A stretch of DNA of 64,000 bases from contig NC_036457.1 in NCBI RefSeq assembly GCF_002775205.1, positions 6,030,024 through 6,094,023 of the forward strand, written 5' to 3'. This DNA comes from Xiphophorus maculatus. Lineage: Eukaryota; Chordata; Actinopteri; Cyprinodontiformes; Poeciliidae. The notes under the pieces were generated by a model. That model had not been told where the DNA came from. It did no database searches and saw only the letters and a program-made list of their open reading frames with translations. Below are positions 45,417-58,170 of this stretch, piece by piece; the first letter of the stretch is position 1, and each line of letters starts with the position of its first letter. A program made the translations under genes and the position numbers.

Positions 45417-48400
45417 ATGAGTGATAACGATGACATCGAAGTCGATAGTGACGTGAGTATACCCACTTTTTCGCTTTTTAGGGACGTTATCCGCAGCTAG
45501 CTGGCGATTTAGCATTCAACTAGCTGCCCAGCTAGCTGACTAGCTGCTCTTTTTTTGAGTTATTTTTTAAATCAGGATTCTGGTTAATTCACAAAACCCC
45601 TTAGCCGGCCTTGTTGCTAATAGGCTGAATTGTGTTACTTTTTAGAAACCTCAGCGTAATAGTTAAGAATTGCCGAGCAGTTATGGCTACAATTGTACTT
45701 TTTGTTCTGTTTTTTTGCAGGAAGAATCACCGAGATATCACTCTGTGGTGCGTAAAGCTGTGGGGGGATTTGTCCACTGTCGAGAAAATGTTTTCCCTGC
45801 TGTTCAGTTATTTTTATTCATCAAATTTGTCTTGTTTTGGTATTTAATGTTGCCCCAAGGACATGGCTGTAACGTTATAGCGTTAAGGGGTATTGCTTAA
45901 CTAGGAAAATATTTAAACAATCACATTCGTGGTTGTTGCATCGAGAATTGAATTAATGATGCGTTTCTACTACTGAGGCGTTTTTGGCTCGCACTGTGCG
46001 CTGCAGGGTGTTCCCCTTACGGAGTCCACTCGTTCACGACGTCTATATTTAGACCAAAGCTTTATCCCGCCACAAAGACTGGTTTTGTTGCAGGTTTGTT
46101 ATTTTTTCCGGTAAACACAAAGCTGTTTGTTCTCCGTGGCAGCAGCCTTCCTCCTCCCCCTCCTACCGGCGCTTGACTTCCCACCGCGGGGATTCCGCTT
46201 ATGATCGGGGCTTTCTAGCATTTCACGCAGGCCATCATCTCGGTAAACAGAGTCGGGTTAGGATGAGGGAGTCGGGGAGGAGAGAGGCTTTTCTGTTGAT
46301 GTTGTTTTGTTATTGGTGTGGTGAAGCCGCGCCTGCATCTCGGACTGCGGCGGGATGTTTTTTCCTGTATTGCAGCCAGAGATTAGAGCCATCTTCTCCC
46401 TACAGGCGGCTAAATGAATGACGTATCGCTGCTTCTCAAACCGGGAAGAGATGCAGCCAGCGCAGAACTTGGATGCTGCACGAAAAACACCTCCCTTTTT
46501 TTTTCTTTTGGCGTCTAAATTTAAAATGTTTTTATATTTTTTTTTAAGCATTAGAACTGGTATTATGATAGAATAGATTAAACTCTACAGAAGCGGAAAA
46601 CAATCAAGTTTATAAAGTAAACATTCTCAGTTTCACCCTAAAAGCATTAAGCTGGAAACAAAACAAAACATTTAGTTTTTGAGGAGCTTTTCCCTCACCA
46701 GGAACAATCAGGGAGTGGCTGTGACGATTAACGCGTGCCACACTTTTCAGATTTGTATTTGCTAAAATATTCGCCACCAACACCTGGCCATCCACCGTAA
46801 GCGACAAATTTGTGGTCTGTGTTTTGGAAAACTTTACATCCCGCACTATTTCAAATAACCGTGACTATGGGGAAACATGTTGGCGGCGGCATTATGCTGT
46901 GGGAACCTTTTTTGTTTGTTGTTTTTTTTTAAGCAGGGAAAAGGAACAAGTCGGTGTTTAGGCTTGTAAGAAAACCTAGAGGTTGTTGAAGACTTGAATT
47001 TCACAGTTTTGTGGTTTAGCTCACAGCATGTTCATGTCCCAAACTGTTACCTAATTAAAAGCGTTTTGGCAGTAATTAGATTTTTGCTGTATAATCATTG
47101 TGAGCTTGAGCTACTTTGTAAAAAAGAAAAAAATGTTATAAAAGAAATTTGCTAAAAAAAACGGCTGAATGCCACACTTTACAGATTCTTTGTGAAAATT
47201 GTTTAATAAAATAAAAAGAAAATAATATAAATGCTACTTGAGTTTCTACAAAGATGCAAACAGCTAGACGCTTTATAATCAGACAAGTTATAATTTTGGA
47301 CTCTTTGTGACACATTTTTGACAAAAAGGAGCTTTTACTTTTGACTTTAGTTATGAAAACAAGAACCAGTGTTTCCCAAATTCCCCATAGGCGCGTTCTG
47401 TCATGAGCTCTAACTGCTCCAGGTCAGTTACCCCCGCTGGCATTGTCGTTTTCTCTCGCTACTTCCTGTTTGTACCCGTAAGCAACGCTTTTCAAAGCGA
47501 TGCTCCTTACAATAGCATATCAGTTTGTTTGGTTTTCTGTACAAGAAATGACCAAATCTACAAAGTTGCACAATATCAGAAGGCAACAACTTACCATATT
47601 TAAAATTATCTTAAATTATCTTAAATGAATAAAGCTGCTTTATTCATGCAGCTAAAATGACGTAATATTCATCGGCACGGTTGGAATCTCGTCTATGATC
47701 TTAGTTTGAATTTGAAACTGAAACTTGAGTGAAGAGAGAAACCTGTTTTGTGTAGCGCAACAATAAGAAGCTGATATATTAAACATTTCACTCATAACAC
47801 TAATAAGACTTTTAAGAAGTCGGTTTCTTTCAACTGGAGAAATTGCATATATTTGTAGCTTTTTTGTTTTTGGATTTTACTCTGGATCTGCATGGATCAT
47901 TAGTTTAAATATAATAGAAGCAGTAATTATTATGGGTTCATGTTAGGAACGTGTCAAGTTATGTTAGATTTATTCTTCTGCTTTATTCCTTGCATAAAGA
48001 AAGCACTCTGCTAAGGAGGAGCCCAGGTTTCCATACGCAAATGGTAAAGCGAAGGCGGCTTTGGGCTTGGCACCCAGCCCTCTTTTGTAAAGCTTCGCTG
48101 TCAAAGTATGTAAAGAATGGAGGAGCAGCGGAGTCGGCGTGTCCTTTTAGGTAGCTGGAAAAATGCTACTTTTATGTGATGAGTTAATAATCACTGCATC
48201 CCGTCAGTAATTTCATGAATTTTTCCTACTCAATTTGTCTTTTTTGTAAAGCTGAGAAGGCACAAAAGTCGTGTATATTTATAAAAGCAGACTTAGCATC
48301 AGTGAGCCTCCAGAAGTAGGTCGTTTTAATTAACTGAAAAGAAGAAAAATCTGATTAACATGGGTGTGTAAAGTGAAAAGAAGAGGTGAGTTCTGAGAGC

Positions 48401-51400: not shown

Positions 51401-54400
51401 AATATCTGCAGTTTGTATTTTTGCTCGCATTGTTGTCCGCTTCCCTGTTTTTGCAGGACAGATTCAATATGCCTCCATAACAACGGGTAAACAATGAACA
51501 CGCTTGGGTTCTGTGTAGGCTAACACATGAACATTGGGAATCTAGCATATTTCTGCAGGTCTGGTTAATTTTGTGCAGAAAACATTTACTGAAAAATACT
51601 TTCTGGTTCATAAATCAACTGCTTTGCTTTTCTTTATCATCTTTTTTGTCACTTTACAAGTAGAAATTGTTTTTAATGGGCTTTTATATGGCAAACTTGC
51701 ACATTGTTGTGCGTAATTGTGACATGAAACAATATCTAGCCGTGTTGTGAAAATGTGTGATATTGCCCCTTAGATTAAAACAAAAATTGGATTGTGTTCG
51801 ATGGAAATAACGGAATCATTTTTTAGATGAGCAAAAGGAGTTTTCAGTCGTGGAAAAAGACGTGATTATTGTCTGTAATGTACAAAAACAAGGCAGGATT
51901 TTTTTTGAAAATAAAGCCATGTTGTGATGACATCCTGAAGGCAGAGTTTCAGGAAGAACTGGAGTTCTTAAAGAGACGGATACAATTACAAGGCGTCAAA
52001 TGAAAAAGTAAAATTTCTTTTAAGTCATATTTAATATATAAAAAGCCCTTTTATAACAACTTATGGTAACATAGTTACCGTACTTGATTGTACTATAAAA
52101 ATTAGGGATGCACAATATTGGATATACTGAAACTCATTTAACCGATACCGATATATCTTTCCTATACTTACTTACTGAAACCGTATGGCTTTCTTTTCTG
52201 TGGATTAAAGTGCTGCATTATTTTTGTAAATTTAGCCTGTTACCAAATGCAAATGGTAAAAAGGAGGCTGAAAATGCATTATGTGTAATGTCAAATTTAT
52301 TTATGACCTTTGCTCTCTCTAAGACAATGACAGCACTCAGTGCAAAGTTGACGTTATGCTGTTCTGCAGGTATCATTGTCTCTGGTTTATCTTACAAAAT
52401 CTACGTCTTTTATATCAGCGAGTTATTTTGACAGAATGGACAATGCCTATTAAATTTTACAGCTAATATCGGCCGATACCGATAATATCGTGCATCCCTA
52501 AAAAAAAAGGCTCTGTAAGCCTAGAAAATATATAATACTGCTCCTTTAACTTTTGGACATTTATGAACTTTCCGTTTTAATCCACTGTACATTTTAGAAA
52601 TTTCTGGGGTTTTTTGTAATTTCTGAATTTCCAAACTAACACCTTTCTGTTCATCAGTTTAATCGATGACTACATGAATTATTTCTCAGTAATTCCCAGT
52701 GAATTTAAATGAATAATTCTGCCTTTCTGTAGCACAGAGTGGATGTAAAGCAGCGTTGCGACGCTGTGCAGCGGAGCAGCTTGTGTAGGTGTGAGCGGGG
52801 ACGGCCAGCTGGACGCCCGCTGTCCTCCTACCCACGCTGCCCTGCTGCCAGGCTGAAGGCCCTGTGACTTCTCATTGCAGGCAGACAAACGGGCACACCA
52901 CAATGCACTGGAGCGCAAACGTAGGGACCACATCAAAGACAGCTTTCACAGCCTGCGGGACTCGGTACCTGCCCTGCAGGGAGAAAAGGTTGGTAACATT
53001 CAGACTCTCAGAAAGGAGAACTGCTTCATCCGATTTTTGTTTTTGTTTTAAATTGAATGTGCACCAGGGAAATGGTTGCAATGACTGGGAAAGGAGCAGA
53101 TGGTGGGAGATTGTAGATTGGCAGCAATGAGGCAGTTTAAATACTTGGACCGGCGTCAGGAAGTTATTATGAGAACATTTTGCTGCTCACTTCCTGTTTT
53201 CACATCAGTGTCATTGAGAAGATTTGGACACATCGGGCGCAGAGTTTGTCATCACACCACAAAGAGCCCATTCAGGGATCTGAGGCAGAGCTGAGTTAGC
53301 TTTAGAAATGTTACACTGGGCAACAAATCAGTTTTAGCAATTAAAATCCAGATTGTTTTTCACTAATGATCTCCTTTGGTTTCCATAGCACAGAGCCGCC
53401 ATCTTGTTTGACAAGCTTCTATTTATCTGGACTAGTTTGAAGTTTTAAATGACATTTAATAACTTTTCTACATATTTCTCTGAATCAACTTTTTCTAAAT
53501 TGTTTCTCACTGTATGTAATTTATCTGGAGTATATTTTTGCGGCTTGTATTTTATGTGAAGCAGCTTAAAAAGTGCTTCACACATAAGGCCGTATTGTCT
53601 GAAATACTGAAATAATTCATGGGAGGTCATTTGTAGCAATATTTCAGTATGTTTAGGTATGAGATATCAAGCATTTGCATTAGCTTGGACTTTATGTTTC
53701 TAGTAAAGATTAGACTTAGTCATTCTGAAACTTTAATCTGGGAGTTTTACTTTCTGTTGTTGCTAATTGAATTATCTAGAGAAGAAGTAGTACTACTTGT
53801 TTACCTCCACGAGGAAAAACGTCTAAAACCGCTATGTTATTGCAGTTGCACAATCTCACTTTGGTCATTTTAATAAATTATAAACCCCATATTAAAAAAC
53901 TAAACACCTCTAATAGTAGATTTTTATTTCTAATACGATGTTGTCTCAAAGAAACGAAGAAGGAATGCACTTTACTGAGGCTCTTTTGGAACAGAAAGAG
54001 GCCCGCAGCATCACAGACCCTCTACCATACGCAACAGTTTAACTTCAGAGCCACCTGGCTGCCAGAGAGAAATCTCACATCAATCAAATTAACAGAAGTG
54101 GCAGAAAAAAGCTTTTTCAAACAACTGGCTGAAATTGAGATGGTTGTCAGACAGCAAGATTAGGAGATTATCCTCCCATCTCTGCAGTCTAATCCAGGCT
54201 TTTCCAGTCAATCTAAGCTGTTTGCCTCTGGTTGTAGTTGAAGGTAAGTTAAGATTATGAACTTTTTAAAATTTATTTAGACTATTTATTACTTGTGAAA
54301 ACATTTTCTCCTAATTGAATCGGTTGTTTTCTTGCTTTTTTACATTTTAAAGAGTGACAGTGATGGATTATTTAACTTCTTACACACTGATCAAATTAAA

Positions 54401-57400
54401 AGAATAATATAAATGCCTTTTCTGTATTTTCATGTGGTAAAAATGTAGTTTTGTGATTTAGCTGCTGGTAATTAAAATGCATTTTGCACATTTGCTAAGG
54501 GTAATTGTCTTAAAATATTATGTAGCAATAAAAATGTCATATATTTTTGTTTTTTGAGTTGTTACTTCACTTCATTGTTGTTTAGAGAATTTAATTTATT
54601 AAATGAATAAATGATGCTCATCTCTGGTTCATACTTGCCAATGTATTAAAGATTGCATAAGTGTGTTTAGATGTAAGGGGAATAATTTTCAGTGAAGTGA
54701 CAGATAGCCACTGAGCGCGCTCAGAACCGGCGCTGTGAACCGTTCAGTCAGCCCGAAATGTGAAAGCGTCGCCCCAGATTCTCGTTTTTAGTCGTGACAG
54801 AAGCAGGGAGACTCTGTGAAAATGTGATGAATCCTCTGTGATGTGTGTGTCATTGCTTCACTTTCTGCATGTGTCACTAACAGCAGTCTACCAAACAGGC
54901 GTCTCGAGCTCAAATCCTAGACAAAGCCACAGAGTACATCCAGTACATGAGGCGAAAAAACCACACGCACCAGCAGGACATCGACGACCTGAAGAGGCAG
55001 AACGCTCTGCTGGAGCAGCAAGGTAACCGCTGCTGGAGGCCGGACCCTCCGAACGTGTTAGTGTTCATCTGCAGAGTTGCTGCAACTGAGAGAAAAACCT
55101 GGTGAACTTGATCCAGCAGAAAGAAAAATCTCTGGTTTTAGAAACTAAAAATATAGAAATGTTAGAAAGCTCCAAGTCAGTTCTTGATGGGACTTTTGTC
55201 GCTCTGAAGAGCAGTTTTCACATTGGACCTAAATCCATTTGATAAACTGGGTGCAGACTTTGACTGGGCCGTTTTAGCACATGAATGTGCCCTCATCTAA
55301 GCTTCAAAGTTCAGCTCTAAAGGGCCAGTGACCTGCAACTTTAAGATAGTCCAACGTACCTGGATCACATGTCAGAATGACCTCATCAGCATGCAGTCAG
55401 AGTCCTGTTGACCCGGTTATTTGAGCTAAAGGTTGCTCCTCAAGGATTGGGGTCTTATGGTGTTTTCACACCTGAAAGTCCGGTAGACTCGGTTTGTTTG
55501 GGGACAGAAATTGCAACATTTGGAAGGTTTCCCCCAGAAAACTTGATAAGCCCAATGGTTGGTGCCAGGGCAGTCATTCATCTAGTGGCCCGTCGTGTTT
55601 TTGAGTTAAAAAATGTTTAAAGTTGGCAGGAAATTTGAAAATATCTCTTGATGATTGTGTTATTGAAAGATTGGAAGATTAATGCCTGAACATCAACTAT
55701 AAAGTCTTAAAAAATGAAAAATTAAATAAAAAAAGCATTGCTTAGCCTGGTGGGGGCACAAGCAAAGCCTGGTGGCCCGCCAGGCTTATAATACAATGAG
55801 GGAAAACCCTGATTTGTTACATTTTCAGCCACTGCGGTTTGTTTTCTCACTGCGCTGTAAAATGAACCAAACCCTTTGAAAAATCTGTTCCCCTCCTCGC
55901 CTGTGGTGGCGCTGCACTGATGGAAACTACATGAAACCCTCTGAAGAAGACATGAGCGCAACTTCTTTATTCATGAAATGTAAACAAAAATGAAGTGCCG
56001 TCAGATTTTAGCAGTTGTTGGATTTCACTTTTGTCTCTGGCAAAAGACAGTGAAACATTTCCCTTGCTAGCAGTAGACTCTTTTGTTTGTATTGGTTATA
56101 TTTACCCAGAATGCCCTGCGCTTCAGTCTCCTTGCTGCTTTTCACAGATATTCAGACAACTAGAGTTTGATTTTTTTTTAAATACGTTTAGTGTGAATTT
56201 GTAAGCAAACCCTGGTCTGACCTAAAACCCCAGGGATCTCTGTTTGGTTGAAGTGAACTCTGGCACAGCAGGAAGCTGACTGTAAAGCAGAGCATTCTGG
56301 GTAAATTCAACCAAAACAAACACACCAGTCGAGTGCTAGCAGGAGAAATGGCTCTTGGATTTTAGATTGAAGACAAGAGACAAGACTTTTCATGAAGACA
56401 TGCGTGCAATGTCTTCCTCAGAGGTTTTCATGGTGATTCCTTCAGGGATTCTTGTTGCAGCGCCCCCACAGGTGAGGAGGGGAACAGGTTTTTCCAAAGG
56501 GTTTGGGTTGTTTGTAAAAATGCAACAAATGTTGCAAATGTTTGGTCCACAATCGAACCGATTCTACCGAACTATCCCTAACCTCAATATAAACTCCACT
56601 GTCGCTCAGTCTCACATATACACTGCCTGGCCAAAAAAAAAGTCGCCACTAAAAAATGGTCACACTCTCTAATATTTTGTTGGACCGCCTTTAGCTTTGA
56701 TTACAGCCCGCATTCGCTGTGGCATTGTTTCAATAAGCTTCTGCAGTGTCACAAGATTTATTTCCATCCAGTGTTGCATTAATCTTTCACCAAGATCTTG
56801 TATTGATGATGGGAGAGTCTGACCACTGCGCAAAGCCTTCTCCAGCACATCCCAAAGATTCTCAATGGGGTTAAGGTCTGGACTCTGTGGTGGCCAATCC
56901 ATGTGTGAAAAAGATGTCTCATGCTCCCTGAACCACTCTTTCACAATGTGAGCCCGATGAATCCTGGCATTGTCATCTTGGAATATGCCCGTTCCATTTG
57001 GGAAGACAAAATCCATTGATGGAATAACCTGGTCATTCAGTATATTCAGGTAGTCAGCTGACCTCATTCTTTGGGCACACAATGTTGCTGAACCTAGACC
57101 TGACCAACTGCAGCAACCCCAGATCATAGCACTGCCCCCACAGGCTTGTACAGTAGGCACTAGGCATGATGGGTGCATCACTTCACCTGCCTCTCTTCTT
57201 ACCCTGATGCGCCCATCACTCTGGAACAGGGTAAATCTGGACTCATCAGACCACATGACCCTCTTCCATTCCTCCAGAGTCCAATCTTTATGCTCCCTAG
57301 CAAACTGAAGCCTTTTTTTCTGGTTAGCCTTACTGATTAGAGGTTTTCTTACGGCTACACAGCTGTTCAATCCCAACCCCTTGAGTTCCCTTCGCATTGT

Positions 57401-58170
57401 GCGTGTGGAAATGCTTTTGCGTTCACAATTAAACACACTCCTGAGTTCTGCTGTTGTTTTTCTTCGATTTGATTTGACCAAACGTTTAAGTAATCGTCGA
57501 TCACGATCATTCAGGATTTTTTCCCGACCACATTTCTTCCTGGAAGACGATGGTTCCCCACCATCCTTCCAGTTTTTCATGATGCGTAGGACAGTTCTTA
57601 ACCCAATTCTAGTAGTTTCTGCAATCTCCTTAGATGTTTTCTCTGCTTGATGCATGCCAATGATTTGACCCTTCTTAAACAGACTAACGTCTTTTCCACG
57701 ACCACAGGATGTGTCTTTGGCCATGGTTGTTTAAGAAATGAGGAGTTACTCATTGCGTCAGCTGGGGTTAAATAACTTGTTGCCAGCTGAAAGATAATCG
57801 CCTATGCAGTACTTATCCAATAGGAGGCTTGTACCTATTTGCTTAGTTAAATCCAGGTGGCGACTTTTTTTTTGGCCAGGCAGTGTATTTACCATGTCTT
57901 CTGCATTCCTCAGTCTTTTTTATTTTTATTTTCTCTGCCTGATGTTCTCAGCCGCTCATGTCTTTTGTTTGTTTGCTTTCAGTCCGCGCTCTGGAAAAAG
58001 TGAAAGGCTCCACCCAGATCCAGACCAACTACTCGTCACCTGACAGCAGCCTGTACACCAACCCCAAAGGCAGCGCCGTGTCGGCGTTCGACGGCGGCTC
58101 CGACTCCAGCTCCGAGTCGGAGGCGGAGGAGCCGCCCACCAGGAAGAAGCTGCGAATGGAGGCTAGCTAG
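45417..58170 (+). CDS. max: MYC-associated factor X (bHLH-leucine zipper)
   Basis: Coding exons: 45417-45452, 45721-45747, 52881-52988, 54899-55022 (alternative starts 54884 or 54887) and 57983-58170, with TAG at 58168-58170. With the 54899 acceptor the product is 160 residues, the length I recall for the human long isoform. In order: acidic N-terminus [12 protein letters not shown], the short exon-2 peptide EESPRYHSV, basic region [11 protein letters not shown] with the E-box-contacting His, Glu and Arg, helix-loop-helix to about QYMRRK, a leucine zipper ([21 protein letters not shown]), and an acidic tail with [10 protein letters not shown] and the basic nuclear signal [13 protein letters not shown] dimerises with MYC, MXD/MNT and itself on CACGTG sites in the nucleus. 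Introns 2 and 4 are heavily loaded with transposons. The neighbour fntb is tail-to-tail, as in human. Confidence 0.97.
45721..45747 (+). CDS. max: 27-nt alternative exon 2 of max
   Basis: The exon is bounded by TTTTTTTGCAG and a GTGCGTAAAG donor, phase 0 on both sides. It encodes EESPRYHSV, aligning to EEQPRFQSA, the nine residues that distinguish the long from the short MAX isoform in mammals. Skipping keeps the frame, so the two-isoform system is probably conserved. Confidence 0.9.
45748..49265 (+). other. 5' part of max intron 2
   Basis: A moderately GC-rich, CpG-containing stretch continues to about 46430, as expected behind a housekeeping promoter. Beyond it lie AT-rich sequence and short chance open frames. 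The stretch at about 48560-48950 is more complex and could be an intronic regulatory element, but nothing specific is recognised. Confidence 0.5.
49266..50302. mobile_element. Foldback element split by nested insertions (max intron 2)
   Basis: The left end (49266-49440) carries TATTTTTGGTCTAGTTTTTA and CAAGTATCTTAGTGCACTTG. The right end (about 50195-50302) carries the inverted counterpart, including AAACTAGACCAAACGTACTT. Both belong to the family of 16929-17341. Between them lie an AT-rich dispersed repeat (about 49490-49660) and a hAT-like element (49668-50098), so the original copy was interrupted at least twice. Confidence 0.65.
49668..50098. mobile_element. hAT-like non-autonomous element, copy 2 (max intron 2)
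   Basis: The left end is AGGGTTTCCCCCAG and the right end GGAGGAAACCCT. The palindromic GCCTGGCGGGCCACCAGGC lies near the left end, so orientation is opposite to copies 1 and 3. Flanking octamers AAACTTCC and GCACTTCT share ACTTC in register. A TA microsatellite at about 49966-49983 makes this copy longer (431 bp). Confidence 0.7.
50303..52102 (+). other. max intron 2, middle part
   Basis: Non-coding DNA with short unrelated open frames. No element or exon was recognised. Confidence 0.5.
52103..52500. mobile_element. hAT-like non-autonomous element with TAGGGATGCAC ends
   Basis: The left end TAGGGATGCACAATATTGG and the right end CGATAATATCGTGCATCCCTA form an imperfect terminal inverted repeat. 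CCGATACCGATA repeats lie next to both ends. This pattern is common in teleost non-autonomous hAT elements, as I recall. An 8-bp target duplication is not clear because the flanks are A-rich. Related fragments lie near 2310-2440 and 12945-13045. Confidence 0.7.
52501..52880 (+). other. 3' end of max intron 2
   Basis: AT-rich to about 52730, then a GC-richer stretch up to the acceptor of exon 3. No separate feature was seen. Confidence 0.5.
52989..54883 (+). other. max intron 3
   Basis: It contains a fragment of the GGGCTGGGCGATAAATTGAT repeat family at about 53360-53430 (ATAGCACAGAGCCGCCATCT, TTGTTTGACAAG). The rest is non-coding. Open frames such as 53834-54163 have no recognisable content. 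Confidence 0.55.
54884..54898 (+). CDS. max: Optional 15-nt 5' extension of max exon 4 (tandem acceptors)
   Basis: Three AG dinucleotides precede the conserved ASRAQILDK codons: after 54883, 54886 and 54898. Use of the first would add QSTKQ in frame between GEK and ASRAQ, the second STKQ, the third nothing (the human arrangement). My unverified memory is that zebrafish Max has a similar five-residue insertion (QSIKQ), which favours the first site. The stretch TCACTAAC just before resembles a branch point. If it is the branch point, it is too close for the first AG and would favour the last. Confidence 0.55.
55460..56600. mobile_element. Palindromic element in max intron 4, interrupted by a hAT-like insertion
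   Basis: The arm from about 55487 (AGTCCGGTAGACTCGG) pairs with the reverse complement of the end at about 56573 (AGTTCGGTAGAATCGG). Further in, AAACCCTTTGAAAAATCTGT near 55869 pairs with AAACCCTTTGGAAAAACCTG read on the other strand near 56500. The following CTGTGGTGGCGCTGC and CTCTGAAGAAGACAT also have counterparts. The left arm is broken by the element at 55525-55810. No coding capacity was seen, and the exact ends are uncertain. Confidence 0.65.
55525..55810. mobile_element. hAT-like non-autonomous element, copy 3 (max intron 4)
   Basis: The left end is AGGTTTCCCCCAGAAAAC and the right end GAGGGAAAACCCT, with internal GCCTGGTGGCCCGCCAGGC. Flanks CATTTGGA and GATTTGTT share ATTTG in register. 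It matches copy 1 at 25997-26290 along most of its length by eye. Confidence 0.72.
56621..57885 (-). mobile_element. Full-length Tc1/mariner transposon with intact transposase
   Basis: Perfect 29-bp terminal inverted repeats lie at 56621-56649 and 57857-57885 (outer sequence CACTGCCTGGCC, then nine A, then GTCGCC). TA dinucleotides flank both ends at 56619-56620 and 57886-57887, the Tc1/mariner target duplication. The element is 1265 bp and encodes one uninterrupted transposase on the minus strand. It lies antisense in max intron 4, with its end 97 bases before exon 5. Perfect ends and an open frame imply a young insertion. Confidence 0.95.
56669..57724 (-). CDS. Tc1/mariner transposase, 351 aa, DD36E spacing
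   Basis: The start codon sits in a good context (ACCATGG) and the frame ends KGGPTKY-stop. The N-terminal third carries the paired-like helix-turn-helix region ([19 protein letters not shown], then [15 protein letters not shown]) and a second DNA-binding helix set around [20 protein letters not shown]. The catalytic DDE domain shows D in [10 protein letters not shown] in FQDDNARIH and E in DLNPIENLW. Between the D that precedes NARIH and the final E there are 36 residues, not the 34 of classical Tc1, placing it by signature near the DD36E group. The enzyme would cut and paste the element through its terminal repeats at TA sites. No stop, frameshift or missing catalytic residue is seen, so it could be active; expression is unknown. 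Confidence 0.95.

Follow-up and report, generated by a model that had tools for sequence, protein, structure and literature searches.

The 1265-bp Tc1/mariner element lying in the last intron of the Xiphophorus maculatus gene max belongs, with high confidence, to a young DD36E (Incomer-type) family of cut-and-paste transposons with many copies, which spread in a burst and then decayed neutrally. It fits a group that has already been described (DD36E, Incomer). Three features went beyond expectation: how large and how recent the burst was, the footprint of local hopping among the copies, and their enrichment at contig ends. The window, i.e., the whole 64-kb stretch of DNA analyzed here, corresponds to C15:6030024-6094023 of the 704-Mb assembly that was searched, and no second copy of the element was present in it.

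The element boundaries proposed in an earlier note on this DNA proved to be exact (Table 1). Its ends form an inverted repeat at 56618-56649 and 57857-57888, 32 nt long when the ATA/TAT flanks are counted, inside which lies a perfect terminal inverted repeat (TIR; 29/29 bp) with TA at each outer edge, in agreement with the earlier description. Alignment of 68 copies gave a family TIR of 30 bp, of which the copy in max has lost base 30 (C to T at 56650). The placement inside max was likewise borne out: the element is antisense to the gene and ends 97 bp before the last exon. The exons were located by tblastn with a human MAX query, which also gave plus-strand matches at 45417-45470 and 52869-53039. 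The insertion probably does max no harm and is carried along in the intron as a passenger. The observed/expected CpG ratio was 0.40 in the element versus 0.52 in the window, so CpG content is no indicator of youth.

Table 1. Features of the element and of the surrounding max gene (positions in the window).
Feature	Position	Strand	Basis
Complete Tc1/mariner element	56621..57885	- (strand of transposase gene)	Among 68 aligned full-length genomic copies
TIR, 3' end of transposase gene	56621..56649	+	29 bp perfect
TIR, 5' end of transposase gene	57857..57885	-	29 bp perfect
TA target-site duplication, left	56619..56620	.	Sequence; both flanks TA in 36 of first 40 copies
TA target-site duplication, right	57886..57887	.	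Sequence; same 40-copy flank comparison
Transposase ORF, 351 codons + stop	56669..57724	-	Pfam; Sleeping Beauty match E 8.6e-41
HTH_Tnp_Tc3_2 domain, residues 76-147	57284..57499	-	Pfam E 3.2e-17, above cut-off
DDE_3 catalytic domain, residues 156-306	56807..57259	-	Pfam E 6.1e-14, above cut-off
Catalytic D160 codon	57245..57247	-	Alignment to Sleeping Beauty triad
Catalytic D251 codon	56972..56974	-	Alignment to Sleeping Beauty triad
Catalytic E288 codon	56861..56863	-	Alignment to Sleeping Beauty triad
max exon, 5' of element-bearing intron	54893..55021	+	Human MAX residues 56-98, 95% identical
Last coding exon of max	57983..58167 (tblastn match 57982-58167)	+	Human MAX residues 99-160, 77% identical

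The element shows the characters of Tc1/mariner transposons, namely a TA duplication and a single ORF of the ~340-aa type, containing HTH and DDE domains and flanked by TIRs. No ORF exceeded 198 codons in 1000 sequences simulated by a first-order Markov model of the element. A further, weaker match to HTH_23, below the Pfam cut-off, covered residues 16-58 of the transposase. The closest solved structure by sequence was that of Sleeping Beauty SB100X (PDB 5cr4, E 8.6e-41), and alignment to its triad identified D160, D251, and E288 as the three catalytic acids that had been recognized in the 351-codon frame. Counted in this alignment, 36 residues separate D251 from E288, the same number as in the earlier note, versus 34 in Sleeping Beauty; the element thus lacks the spacing of 34 residues between the second D and the E that characterizes DD34E/Tc1. 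The structure predicted from the single transposase sequence was unusable (mean pLDDT 37.6).

The max copy differed from the family majority at 8 of 1265 sites (0.63%). Four of these differences are private amino-acid changes, all N-terminal (Q46L, I49M, K68E, and M97V); Q46 and I49 fall within the HTH_23 stretch, and K68 lies in what we take to be a GRPR-like stretch. The description of the element as apparently intact holds for the frame, which is open, and is qualified by the base lost from the family TIR and by the four private residues of the protein; whether this copy is active is uncertain.

Across the genome, a 19-base string made up of TA and the initial 17 TIR bases had 443 exact occurrences, and its reversed control had none. 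Of 864 first-look candidates in a DNA search, 40 places were scored, all of them complete or almost complete in length and 98-100% identical; the search of the genome that the earlier note had called for thus revealed a large family of close copies. The 100 listed end matches (of the 443), on C1-C5, collapsed by hand count to 71 loci, two pairs of ends on C5 (2.5 and 4.2 kb apart) each being counted once. Copies were retrieved by the similarity search (39) and from the list of end matches (40). The 68-copy alignment comprised the max copy, the 39 found by similarity, and the 28 of the 40 end-matched copies that were full-length in one piece. An end-anchored sample, picked by ends rather than by similarity, comprised 37 of the 39 loci (hand count) on C1-C3, retrieved by either route, of which 25 were full-length; the two missing loci were both on C3.

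Full-length copies were 95.6-99% identical to the max copy, with 93.9% for the lowest single piece. TA was found on both sides of 36 of 40 copies, including one (L021) with an eroded right end, and the other four kept one TA; the target preference in the 36 copies was the palindrome AnATA|TATnT. No miniature derivatives were found among the 100 listed end matches (of 443, C1-C5), where the closest facing perfect ends spanned 1216 bp, and three short truncated copies had no common inner sequence. One copy (L070) was considered as a self-nested insertion and rejected, since its two pieces are separate. Another (L055:880-1284) is interrupted by about 405 bp of inserted DNA, at whose edges a few bases are duplicated.

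Mean non-CpG divergence from the column majority was 0.68% in the 68 copies and 0.74% (range 0.16-1.40%) in the 25 full-length copies of the end-anchored sample. The family age is roughly 1.5-1.8 My at a published fish rate, which may not be the rate of this species. Variation was star-like, with 256 variable sites at which one of the 68 copies deviated, 92 with two, 35 with three, and few with more. Under assumed indel rates, the open frame of the element bounds its neutral divergence at 1.4-2.3% (95%), in agreement with the copies. Single-copy non-CpG substitutions in the ORF comprised 182 nonsynonymous, 54 synonymous, and 15 stop changes (72.5/21.5/6.0%), close to the neutral expectation of 68.3/27.6/4.1%, which indicates that single copies decay under little or no constraint; the family majority sequence retains the open frame while they do so.

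It may well be, with a probability a little short of even, that the element is a dead relic, i.e., that an extinct family left an inactive copy in max with a frame that happens to be open. The near-neutral decay of the copies, the four private changes of the max copy, and the age of about 1-2 My at the cited rate would all fit such a history, as would the 18 of 25 end-anchored full-length copies without the 351-codon frame (kept in 7/25). Against it, 32 of the 68 aligned copies keep this frame from its ATG, and 56 of the 117 listed protein matches (hand count) run from residue 1 to 351 without a stop, although these are the best-scoring candidates and some have no start codon. Moreover, two copies at different sites, L033 and L050, differ at only 0.16% of sites and are flanked by unrelated DNA. 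The copies examined were young and many of their frames were open, as the earlier note had supposed; the situation it had named as fatal to its claim, with all copies old and this frame open by chance, was not encountered.

Derived substitutions were compared in 67 of the copies, L015 being left out of the pair counts as a tandem duplicate. At least three common non-CpG derived substitutions were found in 15 of 2211 pairs. Fourteen of these pairs were on the same contig and 13 were within 2 Mb, against shuffled means of 1.16 and 0.33, respectively, and neither value was equalled in any of 2000 shuffles. Ten pairs came from one five-copy group at C2:29.24-30.09 Mb (L033, L050, L056, L078, and L080), so the 15 pairs are not independent and independent cases are few. 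The remaining five were L053/L075, L075/L082 (on different contigs), L016/L065, L049/L089, and L062/L063 (3 Mb apart). Neighboring copies with private mutations in common are the footprint of local hopping; a literature search of limited depth turned up no report of one for any DD36E family in nature.

L053 and L075 (C2:0.08-0.56 Mb), whose flanks are unrelated, had in common 12 derived substitutions and a deletion of one base that shifts the frame, so this defective lineage was copied again, presumably in trans. Other stops and start losses found in more than one copy may be recurrent, since several are at CpG sites and one start loss is found in three copies that otherwise share nothing.

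Segmental duplication or gene conversion, rather than local transposition, could also produce neighbors with common mutations, but we consider it improbable. One true tandem case exists (L015/L028, 3.1 kb apart, the 400 bp to their left being identical), and the weight of a single five-copy group in the 15 pairs leaves room for such an origin. However, in the 11 pairs whose flanks were compared (ten over 333-500 bp, plus L033/L050), the flanking DNA was unrelated on both sides, with the exception of an 89-bp match at 91% beside L033/L056. In the C2 group, moreover, the common changes are distributed over the element and show a tree-like nesting, with one conflicting site. On C20, three copies of the DD36E element at intervals of about 3.15 kb (C20:16405273, 16408423, and 16411569), two of them with an identical 400-bp left flank, represent a tandem duplication carrying the element.

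The distribution of the copies along contigs was also uneven. Among the C1-C5 end-match loci, 46 of 71 were less than 3 Mb from a contig end (12.8 expected), as were 48 of 99 protein matches on C1-C21 (20.0 expected). A second DD36E family of the same genome was also enriched at ends (14/26; 5.3 expected), whereas two DD34E families were not (3/21 and 4/18, for expected values of 4.2 and 3.6, respectively). The counts of protein matches left out C22-C24 and small contigs; the 99 of 117 matches also exclude two tandem C20 copies and count a split match once, the 26 of 31 matches of the second DD36E family also exclude two mid-contig matches, and the DD34E lists were hand-picked.

A search of the same genome with Sleeping Beauty retrieved numerous DD34E copies along with a 338-aa DD35E family, and one with a DD36E bait retrieved the second DD36E family (L110, L111, and L112; about 336-343 aa, motif QDDNAPIHTAR...LNIIE). 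Seven catalytic-domain residues present in L111 are missing from L110 and L112. Leaving aside its own family, the window protein scored best by BLAST against the DD36E protein L111 (290 bits, 40.8%), followed by the DD35E protein L105 (201 bits, 36.6%) and the DD34E protein L092 (192 bits, 34.6%), the latter being used as a DD34E row though G replaces its catalytic E.

In a maximum-likelihood tree of 21 rows from which loop columns had been removed, the five DD36E rows (the window protein, L106, and L110-L112) grouped with support of 98/96, and 14 DD34E rows lay beyond a 100/99 branch; this tree is unrooted, contains the families of one genome plus Sleeping Beauty, and has long branches that meet. 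With a distant, short IS630 outgroup, support was weaker for the DD36E clade (66/44) and was 99/99 for the DD34E branch. A first tree, without the second DD36E family, also placed the window family outside the DD34E rows. L104 (200 aa) was left out of all trees, L107 and L113 of the IS630-outgroup and 21-row trees, and L109 of the 21-row tree; L107 was included in the first tree. In the same genome, one DD34E family (L099 and about 12 equal-scoring places) has many 349-codon open frames with equal scores against Sleeping Beauty, and is possibly even younger than the DD36E burst.

The grouping of the window family with other DD36E rows, outside the 14 DD34E rows, does not support the view that it is a DD34E/Tc1 element with a two-residue insertion of its own, unrelated to other DD36E elements, which the earlier note had named as a possible refutation and which we regard as very unlikely. 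Compared with Sleeping Beauty, the two extra residues do fall within a single loop; a truncated DD34E frame (L104; 36.8% over 204 residues, 141 bits) is per residue as close to the window protein as the DD35E rows are; and a later paper from the group that described Incomer allows for DD36E being a subfamily of Tc1 and not a family of its own (PMC7731502). Nevertheless, the DD36E rows hold together in the tree without loop columns, the BLAST ranking puts L111 well above the DD35E and DD34E rows, and, in the IS630-outgroup tree, forcing DD36E into the Sleeping Beauty group cost 37 log-likelihood units (p-AU 0.006), with a DD34E sample made up of one genome and Sleeping Beauty, without Tc1, Tc3, Minos, or Bari. 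That the element is a domesticated transposase, or an exon or regulator taken over by max, is hardly credible despite its intact ORF just upstream of the last exon, as it is antisense to the gene, retains both transposon ends intact, is one of hundreds of family copies, and carries four amino-acid changes among its eight differences from the majority.

The history that we favor, a burst of a DD36E transposon followed by neutral decay, would have run as follows. By homology to Sleeping Beauty and Tc1, the N-terminal helix-turn-helix domains of the transposase would bind the 29-30 bp inverted ends, and the D160/D251/E288 site would cut the element out. It would then be inserted at a TA, preferably within the AT-rich palindrome, with duplication of that dinucleotide; the TA flanks and the palindromic preference of the copies support such cut-and-paste movement. 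Hundreds of copies probably spread about 1-2 million years ago from a source whose 351-residue transposase was intact; each copy then decayed neutrally, and some mutated copies were mobilized again, often nearby. The copy in the last max intron is one such insertion, with an open frame and uncertain activity of its own.

More tentatively, and in our opinion unlikely, the family could still be moving, mainly by short hops, with mutated or frame-shifted copies mobilized in trans and with these hops having built the clusters at chromosome ends. If so, the local hopping of a native vertebrate element could be read from the natural record in this genome. DD36E elements that are young, present in many copies, and in part intact are candidates for transposons naturally active in vertebrates, and nested sets of mutations in neighboring copies offer a means of measuring hop distance in nature from a single assembly.

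Outside the fish genome, no relatives of the transposase were found in protein searches of viral contigs and of a genome-contig collection, nor in a search of phages. Distant tblastn matches occurred in 52 plasmid records, and the 20 listed comprised 19 annotated as IS630 and one without annotation. A 16-base end pattern occurring in three viral contigs was attributed to chance, BLAST giving only short matches there, and a literature search for the end sequence returned only an unrelated mouse paper.

Compared with known systems, the transposase resembles Sleeping Beauty (5cr4) in its triad and in an identity of about 35-36% over the C-terminal 224-228 residues. It differs in the spacing of 36 rather than 34 residues and in having one short TIR of 29-30 bp per end, whereas Sleeping Beauty has long IR/DR ends. 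The target AnATA|TATnT resembles ATATATAT, the site described for Sleeping Beauty, and the clustering of mutation-sharing pairs resembles the local hopping reported in the available text on that transposon, in which about 80% (frog) and about 75% (mouse) of new insertions were at most 3 Mb from the donor (PMC3271037), and on ZB, for which 4 of 8 mapped jumps were on the donor chromosome (PMC7913693).

L105 and L108, two DD35E proteins with 338-aa open frames, are Traveler-like, judging from the description of Traveler (TR) in the available part of PMC7093834. By BLAST against the window protein they ranked after the DD36E rows (36-37% identity), and they differ from the window family in their 35-residue spacing, in DG for DN, and in their separate branch.

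The closest likeness is to Incomer (IC), described by Sang et al. (2019) as a DD36E element of about 1.2 kb, with a transposase of about 346 aa, TIRs of 22-32 bp, and a TA target (PMC6875036). According to the available text of that paper, Incomer is found in 132 species of ray-finned fish, with intact copies in 33; intact fish copies measure 1169-1229 bp, with a transposase of 314-356 aa, full-length fish copies 1099-1467 bp, and fish TIRs 24-32 bp. At 1265 bp, the window element is longer than the intact fish Incomers but within the full-length range, and length is not a defining trait. It shares with Incomer the DD36E signature, which the paper uses as its criterion of presence, a 351-aa transposase, TIRs of 29-30 bp, TA, a fish host, and intact copies. 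Only about 41% protein identity links the window family to the second DD36E family of the same genome; the separation of the DD36E rows from DD34E matches the account of the tree in PMC6875036, where DD36E is closest to DD34E. Membership of Incomer, compared here through its published description, fits the element by its anatomy and by its grouping with another DD36E family.
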